Source of the DNA: Fidelibacterota bacterium
GTDB lineage: Bacteria > Fidelibacterota > UBA8477 > JABMPR01
Length of the DNA stretch: 50,519 nucleotides
Assembly (NCBI GenBank): GCA_018650445.1
Contig: JABIFX010000111.1
Coordinates: 1-50,519 of the forward strand
Reading direction: 5' to 3'
Shown here: piece after piece, positions 8,895 through 30,783 of the stretch
How the letters are laid out: each line of letters begins with the position of its first letter
Numbering within the stretch: the first letter of the stretch is position 1
Notes under the pieces: model-generated
Seen by the model: only the letters and a program-made list of their open reading frames with translations
The model's database searches: none
Told to the model about the DNA's origin: nothing
Made by a program: the position numbers and the translations under genes

Positions 8895-11342
8895 ATGAGT
8901 TACAGTAGAGCCCTGACGCTGGGTATATTGTTTATAATAAGCACCTCCAACGCACAAGAGAGAAAAAGTATTATCACCTCCAAAACGACGGTGATACCCA
9001 AGATTGATGGTCGCATAGAGGAGCCTGTCTGGGAAACTGTAGATCCTGCGACAGACTTCTTTCGCTTTCAACCAGAGGGTGGAGGAAAAGCTCCGGTAAA
9101 AACAGAAGTTCGTGTACTATATGATGATGTTGCCCTCTATGTAGCTCTTAAAATGTACGACCCTGATCCCTCAAGTATCCTATCCCAACTAGGGAAAAGA
9201 GATGATTGGGATGTGGTGGCTGACTGGGTCGGCCTCTGGATCAACCCTTTTGATGATGGTGCCAATGAACTCACCTTTGTGATCACATCAGCAGGAGTCC
9301 AGATCGATTTAAAATTTAGCCCAAATGGAAACGATAGTAACTGGAATCCTGTTTGGGAAAGTGCTGCAAGAATCGATGCAGAGGGTTGGTCGGCCGAGAT
9401 GGCTATTCCCTTTAGCCAGATGCGGTTTCCAAGCAAGGATATTCAGAACTGGGGCTTTAATGTTGGCCGGCATACTGCGGCTGTACGGGAGATGTATACC
9501 TGGACTGAGCTTGATAAGGAGAAGGGCAATTATGCACAGCAAACAGGCTTGCTAAAGGGAATTGAAAATATCGAAACACCATTGCGCCTTTCACTCACAC
9601 CCTATGCTTCTGCTTCATCTGATCAATATCCCGTGGATGGGCAAATGGTATCTTCAACTTCTTATCGTGGTGGTATGGATCTCCAGTATGGAATTAATGA
9701 AAGTTTCACCCTTGATATGACTCTGATTCCAGATTTCGGCCAGGTACAATCAGATAATATCGAACTCAATCTTTCCCCTTTTGAAATACAGTACAATGAA
9801 CATCGCCCTTTCTTCACCGAAGGGACTCAATTGCTGCAAAAAGCTGGTTTATTCTACTCCAGACGCGTGGGTTCAGAACCTGCTCGGTACTGGCAGGTGG
9901 CTGATGAAGAGATTCTGGAACAGGGAGAGACTATCAAATCTAATCCCGATGTTACCCAGCTCATCAATGCCACGAAAGTAACTGGGCAGACCAATAGTGG
10001 GCTGGGTCTCGGCTTGTTTAATGCCATCACAGCTCCTATGCATGCGGTCATTGAGGATTCTCTCGGCCAGGAACGTGAATATCTTACGAACCCGGCAACC
10101 AATTACAATCTGGTTGTTCTGAGCAAAAACCTCCAAAACGGATCTGAGATTAGTATCGCCAACACCAATGTTAAGCGATTTTCCGGCGATGATTCAACCA
10201 ATGATTTTCGAGATGCAAATGTAATTGGATATGAGACTCGGTTATTTACAAAGGATTCCAAGTGGCGCTTTCAATCCTCTGGAGCCTACAATCACTTGAG
10301 TTATCCAGATAGCTTTTCCACTGGCTTTAAATACTCATTAAGTGTAGCTGAGGTACAAGGCATTGTAAAATATGGAGTTGGGCATTCCGTAGAGAGTGAG
10401 TATTACGATCCAAACGACTTGGGCTTTCTGCGACAACCCAACGAGGTTGGACACTTTGGATGGGTAGAATTTCAAACCATTAATCCAGTATGGAAAATAA
10501 ATGAAGGCAGGATGGAGATTAGTGCCAACTATTCGAGGCTATTCAATCCAGACGTGTATACTCACTTTGGCATTCGGGCAGACTATAATGTGACGTTCAG
10601 GAATTACTATTCAGCGGGAGGAGGAACCTCGTGGAACCCACGTGAAGGACACGATTACTACGAAACCCGTGTAGACAATCGCTATTTTACAACACCCAAA
10701 GCCTTTGATACTCATTTGTGGATAGCATCCAATTTTAACAAACCCTTCTCAATGAGTGGCTGGACGGGTATTTCATCTAAAACCAGACGAGGTAGTCGCT
10801 GGCAAGGTGGTGGGTTGAATCCGAAATGGCGTGTCAACAACCAATTCATGATTGAGTATGAACTGGATATACATCGCCGTTCAAATAACCATGGCTTTGC
10901 AGAATTTGACGATAACGATGAACCCATATTTGGAAAGCGGGACCATTTCACAACAACCAATGCAATATATACTCAATATATCTTTAGTAGAAATCTTGAG
11001 TCTGACATTCGATTACGCCACTATCGATCAACAGTGGAATACAAGGAGTTCTTTGACCTCATGGAGGATGGAAACCTATCTCCAAGTAGTTTTGATGAGG
11101 ATCAAAATACGGTCTTTAATGCATTGACTATCGATGCCGTCATGACCTGGCGTTTTGCACCGGGGAGCGAATTGACTTTTTCCTGGAAGAATGCCATATA
11201 CTCAGACGGAGACACTGATGATCTGGACAAAAGTTACTTCGAGGACCTTCAGGAAGTATGGAATCAGGATCAGAGTAATAGCATTTCTGTTAAACTATTA
11301 TACTATGTTGACTCCTGGGCTCTGAGACATCGCCTAAAATAA
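8895..11342 (+). CDS. DUF5916 outer-membrane protein with CBM9-like N-terminus
   Basis: 815 residues with a signal peptide ending STSNAQ. Residues about 30-200 resemble the family-9 carbohydrate-binding-like module (IDGRIEEPVWE near the start, then DDVALYVALKMYD and FVITSAGVQ). The rest matches the DUF5916 pattern: many amphipathic strands and the FSPFEIQYNEHRPFFTEG-type segment followed by FYSRRVG. Such proteins are common in Bacteroidota and relatives and are predicted outer-membrane barrels; their substrate is not established. It starts 35 bp after the regulator, with no terminator between, so it may be cotranscribed with or controlled by the kinase/regulator pair. A terminator follows its stop. 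Confidence 0.85.
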   Translation: MSYSRALTLGILFIISTSNAQERKSIITSKTTVIPKIDGRIEEPVWETVDPATDFFRFQPEGGGKAPVKTEVRVLYDDVALYVALKMYDPDPSSILSQLGKRDDWDVVADWVGLWINPFDDGANELTFVITSAGVQIDLKFSPNGNDSNWNPVWESAARIDAEGWSAEMAIPFSQMRFPSKDIQNWGFNVGRHTAAVREMYTWTELDKEKGNYAQQTGLLKGIENIETPLRLSLTPYASASSDQYPVDGQMVSSTSYRGGMDLQYGINESFTLDMTLIPDFGQVQSDNIELNLSPFEIQYNEHRPFFTEGTQLLQKAGLFYSRRVGSEPARYWQVADEEILEQGETIKSNPDVTQLINATKVTGQTNSGLGLGLFNAITAPMHAVIEDSLGQEREYLTNPATNYNLVVLSKNLQNGSEISIANTNVKRFSGDDSTNDFRDANVIGYETRLFTKDSKWRFQSSGAYNHLSYPDSFSTGFKYSLSVAEVQGIVKYGVGHSVESEYYDPNDLGFLRQPNEVGHFGWVEFQTINPVWKINEGRMEISANYSRLFNPDVYTHFGIRADYNVTFRNYYSAGGGTSWNPREGHDYYETRVDNRYFTTPKAFDTHLWIASNFNKPFSMSGWTGISSKTRRGSRWQGGGLNPKWRVNNQFMIEYELDIHRRSNNHGFAEFDDNDEPIFGKRDHFTTTNAIYTQYIFSRNLESDIRLRHYRSTVEYKEFFDLMEDGNLSPSSFDEDQNTVFNALTIDAVMTWRFAPGSELTFSWKNAIYSDGDTDDLDKSYFEDLQEVWNQDQSNSISVKLLYYVDSWALRHRLK

Positions 11343-23286: not shown

Positions 23287-24038
23287 GAGGAATCGAGTTT
23301 GTGAAGCCTTCCACACGATTTCTTATGGCTGTTCTACTCATGATGGGTCTCAACTCAGGCGGCTTTGCAGGTGAGAAAACAGTTATCCCCTATGAGGCTT
23401 CTTATATGGGTATTGCTCTGCTGAATATGACGTTGACCTGGGAGGAGCTGGATAGTACGATTCAGATCACTTACAATAATCAGCTTAAACCGTTTATCGC
23501 CTACTTCCATCCCATTCATAATATTTACCGAGTTCATTTTAATAAAGAGAGCTATGAACCCCTATTCTGGTCAAAAAAGGTCTCCGAGGGCTCCATGAAT
23601 TTTCTACTGGAAGCAATTCGGTCAGATGATGGTCTGAATGTGCAATATTCAAATGGTGAACTCAGATCCTTTCCAGCCGATGCACTTACGGTTTTTTCGG
23701 CAACGCATTTCCTGGCATCCAAAGCCAATACCCCTGGCTTTTTCCCAAGAATTCTGAAGGTATATATTGATGGTGAAATATGGAATGCCAAAGCCACCCG
23801 CTATTCTGTAACTCACCCACATCCTGAAATCAAACTCGCCCCCCAGCAGGTATTAATCCAGACTGATCTTCACTATCTAGAGGGGGACAGGGTCATGGAT
23901 GAAAATGATATCCTCATGGATGTCATCGCAAACGAAGGGACACAATTCATGCTCTGGGTGGAGCGAGATGGCAGCTATAGCAAAGCTCAATTTGGTAAAT
24001 TCCCCAGGGCCGTGGTTTTAAAACGCCTAAAGAAATAA
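23283..24038 (+). CDS. DUF3108-like exported protein
   Basis: 251 residues. Signal peptide (hydrophobic core FLMAVLLMMGLNSGG, then FAG). The mature chain is beta-rich with TLTWEELDSTIQ, YRVHFNKESYEPLFWSKKVSEG and a C-terminal FGKFPRAVVLKRLKK, as in DUF3108. The ATG at 23283 overlaps the glycosyltransferase stop as ATGA; the longer open frame back to 23211 lies within the upstream gene and would destroy the signal peptide. DUF3108 proteins are periplasmic and of unknown function. Confidence 0.7.
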   Translation: MRGIEFVKPSTRFLMAVLLMMGLNSGGFAGEKTVIPYEASYMGIALLNMTLTWEELDSTIQITYNNQLKPFIAYFHPIHNIYRVHFNKESYEPLFWSKKVSEGSMNFLLEAIRSDDGLNVQYSNGELRSFPADALTVFSATHFLASKANTPGFFPRILKVYIDGEIWNAKATRYSVTHPHPEIKLAPQQVLIQTDLHYLEGDRVMDENDILMDVIANEGTQFMLWVERDGSYSKAQFGKFPRAVVLKRLKK

Positions 24039-24199: not shown

Positions 24200-25879
24200 A
24201 TGTTAAATAGATTATTAATTATTATCTCATTGCTGGTCACAGGAAATCTTTTAGCCTCGACCACGTTGACTGCGATCGAGGAGGCCTTTGAACGCGGTGA
24301 GTTGACTCAGGATGAGAGAATTTTGAATAAGGTTTATGCAATGCTTGAACCTGAGCTCCTTGATCCTCGATTTCAGGAAATTGAAATTGGAACAATTAAA
24401 TGTGGAACCCCCATTTTAATTGAGTATGAAGCTTTGCAACCTCAGCTGTCTCAAACCACTATCGATATTATTGAAGGACTCCTGCTACCAAGTGTTGATG
24501 GACTGCGTGAGACCTTTTTCAGTCCAGGAGGTCACTTTTCTTTTAACTACGCCACCACAGGGATAGACGCAGTTCCAGCTACAGATTCAGATGCCAGTGG
24601 TGTCCCCGATTTTGTTGAATGGGCAGCCACTTATCTGGATTATACCTGGGCTCAGGAAGTCGACAGTGCTGGATTTGCTGGACCAAATCACGCTGGCGGT
24701 GATGGCTTCTATAATGTCTCCTTCGAAAGCATGGGTCCCTATGGATATTGTACAACCAGCGGTCTTGATGTTGGTGCTACAGAACTTACACGCCTGGTAT
24801 TGCATAATTCGTACGTTGGCTTTGGGGCCAATCAGGATCCAGAAGGTAACGTCAAGGGTGCCATGAAGGTAACCTGTGCCCATGAATTCAAGCATGCAAG
24901 TCAGCGTTCGGAGTCCAGTTGGTCAGAAGATGGCTGGGTGGAATTGGATGCTACCTGGGCTGAAGAGTTTGTCTACAACTATGTCAATGATTCCATGCTC
25001 AATTTTATGGGCTCTGGCGACCCTTACTCACATCCACATTGGGGTCTTGATCATGGCGGTACGGGTTCATATGAAGATTATGCCTGGGAGGATTTCATGC
25101 ATCAAAGGTTTGATGCAAATTCATATACTACAGCTCCTATCCTGGAATATTTCTGGGACTGGCGTCAAACCCATACAACCCAGAATGTTATGACTAGCTA
25201 TGCACAGGCATTAACCCAATATGGTAGCTCACTCCCAGAGGCTTTTGCTGAATATGTAGTCTGGAATTTTTTCACAGGCTCTCGTGCAGTAATAGTCGAT
25301 GGAATCAGTCAGTTCGGCTATGATGATGCTGGAGTCAATGGGTATCCAACAGCCACATTAACATCCACACATAATAGCTATCCGGTATCTTCAAGTGTGA
25401 CCGGGATCGAGAATTTAGGATCAAGAATGATCCGTTTGAATACCTCTAATCAACTTGGCCTGGAGATCGAGTTTGACGGTCAGGATGGCGTGGAAATGTC
25501 CGCGATGTGGGCTATTCGACAGGATGATAATACGGTTGATTGGGGCTCCATAGATTTGGATGGCAGTAACGATGGTTCAATCGTATTGGATGTCAGGGAT
25601 GCTACGATGGCGGCCCTGATTCCTGTGGTCACTCAAATAACAGGGACTACTTATGGAGCCAGCTATAGTATTGAACTAAATTCACTGGCTGAATGTGATC
25701 CAGGAGATATCGATGATAGTGGCATTATCGATGTCACTGATCTGGTTCGGCTCGTGGCCATAATTCTTGGGAATGGTGCCCCTGCCAATGATGTGGAATT
25801 ATGTGCTGCGGATGTAAATGACGATGGTCAACCAAATATTCAGGACGTAATAACACTCGTTGATCTCATCCTGCAGTAG
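24200..25879 (+). CDS. Secreted putative metalloprotease (MXAN_6640-like) with C-terminal dockerin-like repeats
   Basis: 559 residues. Signal peptide (MLNRLLIIISLLVTGNLLAS). Zinc motif HEFKH (His228, Glu229, His232) in CAHEFKHASQ, with a likely third ligand glutamate in ATWAEEF downstream; this pattern fits the MXAN_6640 family of putative metalloproteases. Residues about 498-559 hold two calcium-loop repeats (DIDDSGIIDVTDLVRLV and DVNDDGQPNIQDVITLV) separated by a linker, as in type I dockerin domains. No cohesin gene is in the window, so the tail may instead be a calcium-stabilised or sorting domain. AGGAG precedes the ATG. Confidence 0.8.
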   Translation: MLNRLLIIISLLVTGNLLASTTLTAIEEAFERGELTQDERILNKVYAMLEPELLDPRFQEIEIGTIKCGTPILIEYEALQPQLSQTTIDIIEGLLLPSVDGLRETFFSPGGHFSFNYATTGIDAVPATDSDASGVPDFVEWAATYLDYTWAQEVDSAGFAGPNHAGGDGFYNVSFESMGPYGYCTTSGLDVGATELTRLVLHNSYVGFGANQDPEGNVKGAMKVTCAHEFKHASQRSESSWSEDGWVELDATWAEEFVYNYVNDSMLNFMGSGDPYSHPHWGLDHGGTGSYEDYAWEDFMHQRFDANSYTTAPILEYFWDWRQTHTTQNVMTSYAQALTQYGSSLPEAFAEYVVWNFFTGSRAVIVDGISQFGYDDAGVNGYPTATLTSTHNSYPVSSSVTGIENLGSRMIRLNTSNQLGLEIEFDGQDGVEMSAMWAIRQDDNTVDWGSIDLDGSNDGSIVLDVRDATMAALIPVVTQITGTTYGASYSIELNSLAECDPGDIDDSGIIDVTDLVRLVAIILGNGAPANDVELCAADVNDDGQPNIQDVITLVDLILQ

Positions 25880-25908: not shown

Positions 25909-26463
25909 ATGAAAGAAAAAGCTAATATCTCCTATCCACTATTTGAGAGTTTTAAGGACAAGTTGAAGCCAAAACGTAGCCAGGCTCAAATGGCGCTTTC
26001 TCAAGTCAATGTGTTCAGCCGCTTATCGTGGCAGGAAATAAAAATTGTCGAGAATGCCGTGCATATTCGGAATTATGCCCCAGGGGAACCTGTCTTTAAG
26101 CAGGGTGATCCCGGGAGTGGCATGTATATCATCATTGAGGGGAGCGTTGGCATCTTTTTAGACATCCCTCAACAAGCTCCTAAACAACTTTCAAAACTGA
26201 GTGATGGTGATTTCTTTGGTGAGATAGCTTTGCTTGATGAATCTCCAAGAACTGCTGCTGCAACAGCTATTGAGAATAGCACTATTATTGGGTTTTACCG
26301 ACCTGATCTCATGGATATTTTGAAGACAAAACCAGCACTGGGTGGTAAGATTCTATTAGCGCTCTCTGAAGTTTTGGCTGTTCGATTACGAAGTACCAAT
26401 GGTGAGCTGGTCAAAGTGTCTCGGAAACTTGAATCCGTTTTAGAATCTGGGGCAAATGAGTAA
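25909..26463 (+). CDS. Stand-alone cyclic-nucleotide-binding-domain protein
   Basis: 184 residues holding one CRP-type cNMP-binding domain (about 33-155): NVFSRLSWQEI, then YAPGEPVFKQGDPGSGMYIIIEGSV, and the phosphate-binding cassette FFGEIALLDESPRTAAATA, in which the glutamate and arginine that contact the cyclic phosphate are kept. There is no helix-turn-helix, so it is not a transcription factor. The last codons overlap the ATG of the permease gene by 8 bp, which suggests regulation of that permease by the binding protein. GGAAGG precedes the ATG. Confidence 0.85.
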   Translation: MKEKANISYPLFESFKDKLKPKRSQAQMALSQVNVFSRLSWQEIKIVENAVHIRNYAPGEPVFKQGDPGSGMYIIIEGSVGIFLDIPQQAPKQLSKLSDGDFFGEIALLDESPRTAAATAIENSTIIGFYRPDLMDILKTKPALGGKILLALSEVLAVRLRSTNGELVKVSRKLESVLESGANE

Positions 26464-27580
26464 CACCGATTCAGTCACCATCGCACCCCAGTCAGTGCGA
26501 TTATTTTTCCAGAGTTTCTTTAAAACTCTGGTTTACTTCTTTATACTTGTTTTGGTTCTAGCAGGTGCTTACAAGGCTTTTCCTCTGGTTGTTGATGCCT
26601 TATTTCTTATTGTCATCGCAGCTATACTTACAGCCGTATTCAATCCCCTGGTAGATCGGCTGGAATCTTCTGGATTAAGGCGAATCTACGGCACCTTGTT
26701 GATGTTTGGTGGAATATTTGGTATGGTAGCGCTGGGAGTGATTAAAGGTATTCCTACCTTACTTAATGAAGTCAGCCGCATCAAAGATGTTATTCAGGAA
26801 AACTCAGCAACCGAATCCCTCAATTCGGTCATGGGAGATATAAACTCCAGAATTGCCGAATATATACCTGGATTTCAGTTGGATTTAGATCTCATCACCA
26901 GCCTTTCATCTCAATTCTTTGGCCAACTCGGTTCCGTCCTTGCAGGAGCCCTGGACACTCTTGCTACCATCATTTTCATCCTGATTATAACCATGTTTTT
27001 TCTCGTAGATGGGAAACGTATGACCAAACAGTTGATCGGGATGGTACCCAATCGATATTTTGAAATGTCTTTGAATATTACTTACAAAACCAAACGGCAG
27101 TTGACTAATTTTCTGCGTGGTCAGTTGTTGGCTGCATTAGGTGTAGCCATACAGTCCTTTATTGGCCTCAGCTTGTTAAACTGGATTTTTGATACCAATA
27201 TTTCAGGGGTTCTGCTCATTAGCACCATTGCCGGCATGGCCAATATGATTCCCTTTGTGGGACCATTTATGGGCATGGTACCGGCTATTATCGTGAGTTT
27301 ATTTAATAACCTTGGTGATCCGGTGGCGGCTTCACATTTTTACTTTATTCTACATATCATTGGTATGTTTCTCATCGTCCAAATGATCGACAACAATATC
27401 ATCTCACCCATTGTGGTTTCTGGATCCATGGAAATGCACCCACTCACAGTGATTTTACTTATCCTGGTCGGCTCACAAATTGGGGTGTTGGGGATGTTTC
27501 TAGCAGTTCCTGCCTGGGGTATTTCAAAAGTTGTTATTCAAGAAGTGTATCAGGGGTTAAAAGGTCACCACCTGATCTAG
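26456..27580 (+). CDS. AI-2E family transporter (PerM-type membrane protein)
   Basis: 374 residues with about eight TM segments and an alpha-helical loop (about 100-150). Family features are PLVDRLESSGLRR, the FLRGQLLAALGVAIQS motif and IPFVGPFMGMVPAIIV. The ligand of such permeases varies and is not fixed by sequence, though some export autoinducer-2 or other solutes. It is coupled to the cNMP-binding gene by an 8-bp overlap. Its stop TAG abuts the stop of the converging 27581 gene with no spacer. Confidence 0.85.
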   Translation: MSNTDSVTIAPQSVRLFFQSFFKTLVYFFILVLVLAGAYKAFPLVVDALFLIVIAAILTAVFNPLVDRLESSGLRRIYGTLLMFGGIFGMVALGVIKGIPTLLNEVSRIKDVIQENSATESLNSVMGDINSRIAEYIPGFQLDLDLITSLSSQFFGQLGSVLAGALDTLATIIFILIITMFFLVDGKRMTKQLIGMVPNRYFEMSLNITYKTKRQLTNFLRGQLLAALGVAIQSFIGLSLLNWIFDTNISGVLLISTIAGMANMIPFVGPFMGMVPAIIVSLFNNLGDPVAASHFYFILHIIGMFLIVQMIDNNIISPIVVSGSMEMHPLTVILLILVGSQIGVLGMFLAVPAWGISKVVIQEVYQGLKGHHLI

Positions 27581-30046
27581 CTATTTCTTCTGCTTGTTCT
27601 GATATTCTATTTTCTCAATACTTCCATCTTTCAAATACAACCAGATCTCGACGGATTTGGATTTAGGATAAACGTAAAGCTCGTATTCACCCTCCTTAAA
27701 TTTCCGTTCAGGGGGACCAATATATCGGATGATGAGTGATCCCTTCATACCCAGCTTAGGAATAAAATTTTCGGGATTCAGATTTTCAACATCATCCATC
27801 AAGTTATCCAGAGCCATGCGCTTCATGGGGGCGATCTGCTGCTCATCGGCATATTGAATAGCCCGTTCTAAATCCTTCAAATGTTCATCTACAATTTCAG
27901 ATAACACAGGATTCAGATTCTTGGCGTCCTTCATGGATTCATACACCATTTGGCGGTCTTCTTTCAGTATGCCTTCATTGGCGTCATCAAGACGCCCATC
28001 TCCAACCTTCTGGCGAAGCTCAGCTGTTACCATTCTGTATCGATCAGTAAGCCCGTCGGCCTGTTTGAGCCAATATAAGCTTCGACCATAGACACCAGAT
28101 TGATATAAAACGGTAGCTCGAATGATGTATGACCGAGCGAGGAGAACTTTGGCAATGGCGTAGGAGGAGGGATCACTTTTAAGTGCAAGCAGAATGAGAT
28201 CTTCGGCCAGTTCATAATCCAGCATCTTCAATGCCTCTGATACACCTTCCAATGCACGATCTGTAATTTCCACTTCCATATTCTGGACTGCTCTTTGAAC
28301 AGCTTGACTGGGTGGTACTTCACCCTGTTGAATGAGCGCATGGGCATCTCCAATTTTGCCCTGTGAAAGAATGGTACGGACATCACGGTAGTATCTGGTT
28401 ACCAGGGAATCCTCTACCAGCTGCTTTTGTATTAGCACCGCGTCCTTATTGTGATGATTTGGTGAGAACTGCAGGAGGTCGTGCATCAATTCGAGGGAAC
28501 TGGTAAAGTGTTTGTCCTTAAATGCTTCGAAGGCTTTCATTGCAGCATTTGGGTATCCGCCGAATATCAAACCAATATTCAGCGAGACAAGAGGTTGACT
28601 CAGATCGATATATTTAATGGGGATAAGTTCACTTGGATCCACGGCAGAGAGATTTGATGCACTCATGTCAATCTCAAAGGCTTGATGCACATATTCCAGA
28701 TTAATCCCGAATGTTACCCTTGAGCTCCCGTCTCCTTTGATAGTATAACCTACCCCTGATCCAATATGCCAGGTGAGACCACTGGCATCGATTAATCTGT
28801 TCAAACCCTCGTTTTCGTACAAAGTCATGGTGGCAAATCCAGTCCCGCCTCGAATTCTTGTGAATAATTTTGGTCCCAATGGATATATAATTTCGTGATC
28901 AAGATAGATATCATAAACTCGGGGAGAAAAGGTCAAATTATTAAAAGTGCTGCTACCATCAGATAGGCTACGAGCCCACCCTGAGGGGAGTGTGGTTGGG
29001 GTTGCCATTTTCCAGAGACGCACACCTATACCGCTAAATACATCAATATTAGCCTGACGAATGAAGTGGAATGGCCAGTTGTATTTAAAGATTTGAAGAT
29101 CATAGTTTTGACTAATGGAGGATGTGAATGGAATGCTCAATTCGGTTCCAACAGAATCATAGTGAATGGAGACGCCTGTTTTAAGGGTGAGGAGCCCAAA
29201 TCCTGTACTGATGTTGAGCAATCCTAATTTGAAGGGGTCACGGAAGGGCGTATAAGCTCCAAAGAATACCTCCCCAAGTTCCAATGTCACATTTAAATCA
29301 GGTGTACTGAGTGAAAGTGACTGAATGGGTGAAACTGCCCCCGTTCCACCACCTGGTAAAATTAAGCTTTCTCCTTGATCAGCTAGATCAAAACCTTCCA
29401 ATGTATAACCCAGATCAACACCTACACGAAATCGTTTTCCCAAACGACCAAAGAGGGTGGTCTTCCAGCCAATTCCAAAACTGACGTGATAGCCATTTGA
29501 TTCCAGAACACGGACACCCTTAGAGTTTTTGTATAAAGTGAGGTGAGAAAGCCCCAAACCAATCTGTGCATGAAGACTTCCTCTCCGGCTATAATCGTAG
29601 ACAAAATAGTTACCCAGTGAAAACCCACGAATCAGCATATTCATGGTGAACGTTGATATATCTGTACCATTCACTTCCAGAGCAGATGGATATCCTGAGG
29701 GAAGATTGATATTTCCAATCTGATTGCGAATGGTATAATGCAAGCTGGAGTAGGCATCAAATTTTGATGCTGGCTGGAAATGATCCCACCAACGGTAGCG
29801 CAAAATTTCTAAATCCACGGAAGCAAGAACGCCCCGTAGAGTATCTGCGATAGTCCAGCCTCCAGGTACAGAAGTGACTTCCATGTTCTGAGTCGGCTTG
29901 ATAGAGAAATATGATAAGCCTGTTTTGATGCCAGGGAAGGGTAGCAAATGGGGAGAAACAATAGGAATTTCTTGACCAAAAGCCAGCACGGCGACTATAA
30001 GTCCCGCTTGTGTAATCCTCCTGAGTAAATCACGAATCATGTCCAT
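27581..30046 (-). CDS. Exported protein with two tandem beta-barrel modules, helical domain and C-terminal beta domain
   Basis: About 820 residues. A signal peptide (LIVAVLAFGQE) is followed by two related barrel-like modules at about 29929-29258 and 29185-28556. Matching landmarks sit 238 residues apart: DLEILRYRWWDHF/DLQIFKYNWPFHF, LPSGYPSAL/LPSGWARSL, LTLYKN/MTLYENE and GVDLGYTLEGFDL/GINLEYVHQAFEI. Next comes a TPR-like helical region (about 28550-27740), then a C-terminal beta piece with GPPERKFKEGEYELYVYPK. I infer an outer-membrane or envelope-scaffold protein; no family is recognised. Start: ATG 30046 gives the signal peptide; a TTG at 30067 is possible. No ribosome site is clear. A terminator sits directly upstream. 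Confidence 0.65.
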   Translation of the reverse strand: MDMIRDLLRRITQAGLIVAVLAFGQEIPIVSPHLLPFPGIKTGLSYFSIKPTQNMEVTSVPGGWTIADTLRGVLASVDLEILRYRWWDHFQPASKFDAYSSLHYTIRNQIGNINLPSGYPSALEVNGTDISTFTMNMLIRGFSLGNYFVYDYSRRGSLHAQIGLGLSHLTLYKNSKGVRVLESNGYHVSFGIGWKTTLFGRLGKRFRVGVDLGYTLEGFDLADQGESLILPGGGTGAVSPIQSLSLSTPDLNVTLELGEVFFGAYTPFRDPFKLGLLNISTGFGLLTLKTGVSIHYDSVGTELSIPFTSSISQNYDLQIFKYNWPFHFIRQANIDVFSGIGVRLWKMATPTTLPSGWARSLSDGSSTFNNLTFSPRVYDIYLDHEIIYPLGPKLFTRIRGGTGFATMTLYENEGLNRLIDASGLTWHIGSGVGYTIKGDGSSRVTFGINLEYVHQAFEIDMSASNLSAVDPSELIPIKYIDLSQPLVSLNIGLIFGGYPNAAMKAFEAFKDKHFTSSLELMHDLLQFSPNHHNKDAVLIQKQLVEDSLVTRYYRDVRTILSQGKIGDAHALIQQGEVPPSQAVQRAVQNMEVEITDRALEGVSEALKMLDYELAEDLILLALKSDPSSYAIAKVLLARSYIIRATVLYQSGVYGRSLYWLKQADGLTDRYRMVTAELRQKVGDGRLDDANEGILKEDRQMVYESMKDAKNLNPVLSEIVDEHLKDLERAIQYADEQQIAPMKRMALDNLMDDVENLNPENFIPKLGMKGSLIIRYIGPPERKFKEGEYELYVYPKSKSVEIWLYLKDGSIEKIEYQNKQKK

Positions 30047-30115: not shown

Positions 30116-30688
30116 TTATTTTTTTGCAGGAGCTACTGTCACGGAGCGAGTGTAAATATAATCCCCGGTTTTTTTCTTGTTCCCGTTGCCAGCATTAAAC
30201 GCAAAATAGAAGGATGAGCTCGATACCACCTCATCTGGTGCCTGCCACTGGAAGGTCCAGATCTGGGATTTCCCCTTTTCAGATCTTTTATTGCCCTTCA
30301 GAGTATGAGAAATATAGCGACGGGAAGTGCGCGACTTGGTCTTTGTGTCTGCAATGAGTTGGGTGGGTTGGTGCTTTAATGAAATCAAAGTCCCCTGTGC
30401 ATTTCCATCTTCATCAGCCACGGTAGCCACGAAACCGAAAGTTTTGGCCCCTGCCTGTTGAAGACTGAGAGTGATGTCATAGATTTCATTGGGCTCATAA
30501 ACCTTGGGGAGACCTTGAATGGAAATCTCAGCCTTCCCAGAGTTTAGATCATTCCCGGCGTGACATTTACTGGTATGACAGGTTCTGTCCCCAGGTGCAC
30601 CAGAGGTCATAGGAGGAGCCCCTTTTTTCTTTGCACTGAGTGAGACAGTAAGGAAGAGGGACAAAGCAAATATTAATATGTGACGCAT
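30116..30688 (-). CDS. Exported Reeler-like (choice-of-anchor V-type) protein with CX4CH motif
   Basis: 190 residues. Signal peptide MRHILIFALSLFLTVSLSA. Just after it lies GAPGDRTCHTSKCHAG, a CX4CH sequence where the family usually has CXXCH; CX4CH can bind heme c in some cytochromes. The body is a beta-sandwich resembling the Reeler domain (YEPNEIYDITLSL, FGFVATV, WTFQWQAP, FYFAFNAGNGN). The start at 30688 is set by AAAGGA 7 bases upstream; the longer frame to 30757 is not needed. Function unknown; surface or periplasmic. Confidence 0.7.
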   Translation of the reverse strand: MRHILIFALSLFLTVSLSAKKKGAPPMTSGAPGDRTCHTSKCHAGNDLNSGKAEISIQGLPKVYEPNEIYDITLSLQQAGAKTFGFVATVADEDGNAQGTLISLKHQPTQLIADTKTKSRTSRRYISHTLKGNKRSEKGKSQIWTFQWQAPDEVVSSSSFYFAFNAGNGNKKKTGDYIYTRSVTVAPAKK

Positions 30689-30755
30689 AGTCGAATCCTT
30701 TCGTTTGGAATTGGAATATTGCTGGAAAAATAAGGTGTGGCGCTGGAGATGAAAC

Positions 30756-30783
30756 AAAAAACCCCGCGTTTCCAGGGGTTTTT
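30756..30783 (-). terminator. Rho-independent terminator (first of twin pair)
   Basis: AAAAACCCC pairs with GGGGTTTTT around GCGTTTCCA, with six T on the minus strand. It lies 68 bp upstream of the Reeler-like start and ends any transcript coming from the 74-bp interval 30784-30857. Confidence 0.7.

Follow-up and report, generated by a model that had tools for sequence, protein, structure and literature searches.

How does a bacterial outer-membrane protein come to carry two barrels in one chain, and what would it use them for? This question is raised by a gene on contig JABIFX010000111.1 (assembly GCA_018650445.1) of a Fidelibacterota bacterium, which lies in a stretch of 50,519 nucleotides that was analysed as a whole and is called the window here. 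The marine phylum Neomarinimicrobiota/Fidelibacterota, placed in the FCB group by the NCBI taxonomy, is largely uncultured. The original prediction, made from the DNA letters of the window, described the product as an exported protein with two tandem barrel modules, repeated almost without gaps at an offset of 238 residues and followed by a periplasmic part resembling tetratricopeptide repeats (TPR). Our analysis bears out this layout and extends it. The gene probably encodes an outer-membrane protein with a signal peptide, two tandem eight-stranded barrels, a TPR-like periplasmic solenoid and a BamE-like domain, in which the barrel was duplicated in a single genus and which would serve as an OmpA-like anchor.

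The internal duplication is clearly seen in the protein itself. Residues 27-262 (module 1) and 263-505 (module 2) align over their full length with a Smith-Waterman score of 180, while 2000 shuffles gave a mean of 35.1 (standard deviation 5.8) and a maximum of 67. The comparison of the module 1 profile with the module 2 profile resulted in an E value of 3.8e-18 across 225 columns, hence the self-alignment is significant by both measures. When all offsets between 30 and 399 were scanned without gaps over residues 1-520, the proposed offset of 238 came out on top with a score of 14 (47 identities/282), and the runner-up reached -78. The same spacing is kept throughout the genus of the window's organism: the YxW landmark, in the form [RK][YF][RN]W or RYHW, recurs at a distance of exactly 238 residues in 18/18 genus sequences that are long enough for both copies, among them sequences with an identity to the window protein of down to 51%. 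In the window's own genome, the module 1 profile matched elsewhere only module 2, even at E values up to 10 (E 1.1e-24).

The predicted fold agrees with this picture. The structure model of the window protein has 8 + 8 long strands followed by helices between residues 501 and 752, and each half alone superposes on solved, closed eight-stranded outer-membrane barrels (2.5-3.4 Å in the best rows), i.e. two separate barrel domains per chain are predicted, and neither one continuous barrel nor a propeller was found. The model of a single-module relative forms a complete barrel of eight long strands as well, which matches OmpA and NspA with template modelling (TM) scores by target length of 0.66 and 0.69, respectively; thus, both models begin with an eight-stranded N-terminal barrel of the OmpA type. 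The helices behind the barrels, together with TPR and BamD-like matches in relatives, support the TPR-like part that had been proposed. The outer-membrane location is a prediction from these models. Two further approaches contributed little, since the count of amphipathic peaks (16 and 15) was not decisive and mean-field direct coupling analysis, run on 136 rows with an effective number of 93, yielded no strand ladder that could be used. The alignment used for the latter, and for the BamE comparison below, contained the genus genes L066 and L067 twice.

The window protein itself received no domain match in Pfam (E up to 1), and its sole NCBIfam match, RutD with E 0.031, is far under the cut-off and spurious, which is in line with the earlier statement that no named family was recognised. 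Nevertheless, the protein belongs to a large family. Within the genomes of the phylum, to which the family search was directed, the window protein found a match in 46/60 genomes (its own genome counted), and the family profile in 188/245 genomes and 74/84 genera; the remaining 57 genomes, many of them incomplete, gave no match. Proteins from outside the genus align to the window protein only from approximately residue 250-315 onward. The modules were counted by profiles in 135 distinct genes among the matches listed (116 non-genus and 19 genus genes). A single module was found in 116/116 of the non-genus genes, which answers the earlier question whether single-module homologues exist, and two modules in 18/19 of the genus genes, the 19th being a contig-end fragment of 197 residues. 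The module 1 profile recovered its own module in 19/19 genus genomes (one partial), then module 2 of the genus and then the single-module members. Hence, the original prediction can be refined: one barrel is the widespread form in the phylum, and the second barrel is specific to one genus. A 787-aa frame in genome G230 was considered as a second two-module lineage and rejected, because it holds only one module, to which an open 5' extension is attached. Besides this, in one genus member (genome G004) a frame shift close to the 3' end splits the gene into two frames (L034 and L009; 719 and 127 residues), which could be an assembly error. Another genus, g8, is represented by 8 listed small genomes (G027, G045, G051 and G082-G086; 0.4-1.0 Mb) without the barrel family; SprA and BamD are present in G027, G045 and G051, the three tested.

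The point of insertion can be located precisely. In 4/4 single-module rows from the same taxonomic family and order, the motif Q[WF]TP[FY]RDPF directly follows the signal peptide, whereas its counterpart TPFRDPF sits at the junction of the two modules in the window protein; therefore, the extra module stands exactly between the signal peptide and the old mature N-terminus. Module 1 is the derived extra copy and module 2 the ancestral one. In the phylogenetic tree (one truncated row omitted), both genus modules fall into one group with the single modules from the same family and order (support 95/89). Module 1 is placed outermost within that group on a long branch in the best tree, although a topology in which modules 1 and 2 are sisters is not rejected (p-AU 0.29). 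In the simplest reading, the barrel was duplicated on the branch leading to the genus and module 1 changed rapidly thereafter. An origin of module 1 from some other barrel gene was rejected, because in 60 relatives no such gene matches the module 1 profile better than the family's own modules: outside the genus, single-module members are the top matches (E 6e-12 to 0.008), and everything else has E values of 0.02 or worse. Both modules are under purifying selection, with dN/dS values that lie at 0.10-0.14 in module 1 and at 0.06-0.18 in module 2 when the window is compared with six relatives; the helical part showed values of 0.03-0.09 in the 4/6 comparisons in which it could be computed.

To see what changed in module 1, its sequences (11 rows) were compared at 28 columns that are at least 85% conserved in module 2 and the single modules (20 rows, without one truncated row). 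The residues P271, G403, Y410, G431, G447, Y452, F457 and P476 are retained in all 11 module 1 rows, whereas R269, N323, Q331, G339, W357, G364, P375, T425, S442 and G496 are absent from all of them. A recount over the 116 non-genus rows of the whole family found N323, G339, G447 and G496 in 116/116, W357 in 98 and P375 in 97. In contrast, R269 (60), Q331 (45) and S442 (16) are not conserved phylum-wide, despite their conservation in the small set. The loss of G496 from module 1 is unsure, since the module alignment ends at this residue, and it was left out of the count. The positions of N323 and G339 fall in an ungapped stretch of the repeat. Both residues are kept in module 2 of 18/18 genus genes; in module 1, R (16) or H (2) replaces N323 and S (18/18) replaces G339. 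Because the chain starts at the N-terminus and the helices come after strand 8, the strand order would place N323 within the first turn on the periplasmic side and G339 within the strand rising from that turn. Module 2, which is joined to the solenoid, kept both residues and the free module 1 lost both; therefore, we read the change as the loss of a scaffold-facing contact in module 1.

From the computed duplication, single-module relatives, conservation and predicted fold we infer membrane insertion, orientation, anchoring role and partners along the following lines. In the ancestor of the genus, the barrel-coding segment was probably duplicated in tandem and in frame right behind the signal peptide. 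Module 2, next to the solenoid, has kept the ancestral sequence features, and module 1 has kept the fold and lost N323 and G339, which fits a barrel that has given up its packing against the solenoid. By analogy to OmpA or OprF, the small barrel may act as a membrane anchor rather than as a channel, so that the working part would be the periplasmic solenoid with the BamE-like domain, where a partner would be docked against the inner face of this membrane. The partner might belong to the machinery of outer-membrane protein assembly (BAM-related), a separate guess that we hold to be rather doubtful. With its second barrel, the protein might have a wider membrane footprint and present a new surface to which a lipid or a protein could bind. 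The most likely role is thus that of an OmpA-like anchor by which a docking scaffold in the periplasm is kept attached to the outer membrane.

The alternative that survives best starts from the C-terminus, for which the original prediction mentioned no domain and where we find a putative BamE-like domain by sequence comparison. The family profile aligned to E. coli BamE with an E value of 7.9e-5 (hhalign, probability 61), compared to 0.078 or worse for the controls. Among 24 whole-genome matches of the BamE profile, 6 fall in C-termini of the family, all outside the genus and none of them above the cut-off. The solenoid points in a similar direction. Five of 11 family members match TIGR03302 (BamD, NCBIfam) weakly and under the cut-off (best E 0.0068), sequence searches of the PDB (E up to 0.01) returned 7 distinct sequences, all of them BamD, TPR or designed-repeat chains, and of the 50 structural matches listed for the single-module model, 11 are titled BamD or chains of the β-barrel assembly machinery (BAM), to which comes 5ayw, which we take to be a twelfth. 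Hence, the protein could be an accessory subunit of the BAM complex, in which the BamD-like solenoid and the BamE-like domain bind BamA and the barrel stands beside BamA, as BamG does in Bacteroidota. BamG is a transmembrane outer-membrane subunit of the Bacteroidota BAM, and six of the seven other FCB phyla conserve BamG and BamH (PMC12611786); the present phylum is placed in the FCB group as well. However, BamG is a FadL-like barrel (PMC12578637), not one of the OmpA type; moreover, a separate BamD exists, the gene usually lies next to those of an AI-2E transporter and a cyclic-nucleotide-binding protein, and the 57 phylum genomes without a match also argue against such a function. An accessory BAM subunit is therefore possible but rather doubtful. 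A replacement of BamD was rejected, as a separate BamD matches above the curated cut-off in 57/60 genomes. Going further, one may imagine a phylum-wide outer-membrane assembly factor whose single chain unites a BamD-like solenoid and a BamE-like domain with an anchor of the OmpA type and which became a twin-barrel subunit by duplication in one genus, its first barrel taking a new role beside the machine; we regard this as unlikely.

A component of the type IX secretion system (T9SS) of the phylum was also taken into account. The SprA translocon was matched in 59/60 relatives (58 above cut-off), thus type IX secretion seems general in the phylum, and one family member matches the PorP/SprF model with E 0.057. 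But the PorP similarity is generic, with E values of 0.03-0.04 at best for family members and far under the cut-off, and all 14 of the 60 genomes without a match to the window protein have SprA matches, which makes a T9SS component highly improbable. A kinship to PorP/SprF was likewise rejected as generic barrel similarity: no family member is over the cut-off of TIGR03519, and the one gene in 60 genomes that passes it comes from outside the barrel family. Alternatively, both modules together might form one barrel of about 16 strands that serves as a porin or as an exporter channel and carries a periplasmic TPR part. The best Foldseek matches of the whole model (CymA, TodX, OmpF, EspP and AlgE) indeed align through both modules, but in the top 50 these larger barrels have root-mean-square deviations of about 20 Å or more and TM scores that are about 0.1 when normalised by query length and do not exceed 0.28 when normalised by target length. 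Given in addition the close superposition of the single halves on closed barrels and the complete barrel of the single-module relative, a single large barrel is very unlikely. That module 1 is a lipid-modifying enzyme of the PagL type is extremely improbable.

Turning back to the anchor reading and the locus, the coordinates are collected in Table 1; the signal-peptide cleavage site was placed by eye with a general rule, not computed. No cysteine occurs among the N-terminal 60 residues, thus the protein lacks a lipoprotein signal of the BamE type. The AI-2E gene adjoins the family gene in 20/25 loci examined, single- and two-module alike (12/13 in the genus, 3/4 in the family and order and 5/8 further off). 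In L044, a single-module relative of the same family, it does not adjoin, and the order member L045 also has the same two upstream genes. The choice-of-anchor V gene is found upstream in 12/13 genus loci and in L045.

Table 1. Coordinates of the gene, its predicted domains and other features in the window.
Feature	Position	Strand	Basis or remark
Protein-coding gene	27581..30046	-	ATG at 30046, stop at 27581, product 821 aa
Signal peptide, residues 1-24	29975..30046	-	By-eye prediction: basic start, hydrophobic stretch, AFGQ; model helix 2-22
Module 1, residues 25-258, derived eight-stranded outer-membrane barrel (predicted)	29273..29974	-	
Junction, residues 259-273, with TPFRDPF (mature N-terminus in single-module relatives)	29228..29272	-	Alignment
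Module 2, residues 274-497, ancestral eight-stranded barrel (predicted)	28556..29227	-	
TPR-like helical solenoid, residues 498-757	27776..28555	-	Model helices; matches in relatives
Putative BamE-like C-terminal domain, residues 758-821	27584..27775	-	Model: one helix and four strands; BamE profile comparisons
Stop codon	27581..27583	-	
AI-2E family transporter gene, convergent neighbour	26456..27580	+	PF01594 E 1.7e-45
Cyclic-nucleotide-binding domain protein, neighbour	25909..26463	+	PF00027 E 2.1e-21
Terminator-like hairpin with T-run, between the choice-of-anchor V gene and the start codon	30072..30099	-	25 bases before ATG
Choice-of-anchor V protein, directly upstream	30116-30757	-	NF041895 E 1.6e-26
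MXAN_6640-type putative metalloprotease	24200-25879	+	NF045524 E 1.4e-41; dockerin-like C-terminal repeat by eye
Gene before the putative metalloprotease	23289-24038		No Pfam match at E up to 1e-5
DUF5916 protein with CBM9-like domain	8895-11342	+	PF19313 E 9.6e-179

Solan et al. reportedly described multi-barrel outer-membrane proteins in 2021, with GfcD and YjbH as examples, which resemble the window protein in having more than one barrel domain per chain. As a class, such proteins are published (PMC11494523, PMC9603273), and GfcD consists of a 12- and a 13-stranded barrel joined by a periplasmic domain (PMC11494523). Compared with GfcD, the two eight-stranded tandem duplicates adjoin directly here and the periplasmic part lies behind both. 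Judged from sequence and model, the window protein would extend the class by a variant with tandem eight-stranded barrels. With OmpA and OprF it shares the eight-stranded N-terminal barrel followed by a periplasmic part, but this part is TPR-like with a putative BamE-like domain, the barrel is doubled in the genus, and Pfam (E up to 1) gave no match for the OmpA peptidoglycan-binding domain in the window protein or 8 relatives. PgaA, BcsC and Slam also combine a barrel and a TPR part in a single chain; in this type the TPR part stands before one larger barrel, whereas the order is reversed here, with small eight-stranded barrels before the TPR part. The putative C-terminal domain resembles BamE (SmpA/OmlA) in the pattern G-M-T...G-x-P...W-x-Y, but BamE is a small lipoprotein, while the domain here would be the tail of an eight-strand-barrel protein and scores under the Pfam cut-off. 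The solenoid is similar in shape to the TPR solenoid of BamD (YfiO), from which the protein differs in lacking a lipobox cysteine, in scoring under the NCBIfam cut-off and in coexisting with a separate BamD. Among the listed titles and abstract starts, a coverage that leaves out most subscription journals, we found no description of this family or of tandem eight-stranded barrels with a TPR part, and nothing specific on barrel-plus-TPR proteins, outer-membrane proteins or the T9SS of the phylum.

The growth of outer-membrane barrels is commonly attributed to duplication. One- and two-barrel counterparts at the same locus in related genera, with an identifiable copy that retains the ancestral residues, provide a clean natural experiment on the origin of multi-barrel proteins. 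Moreover, the combination of a predicted OmpA-type anchor with BamD-like and BamE-like parts may give a testable lead on outer-membrane biogenesis in this phylum.
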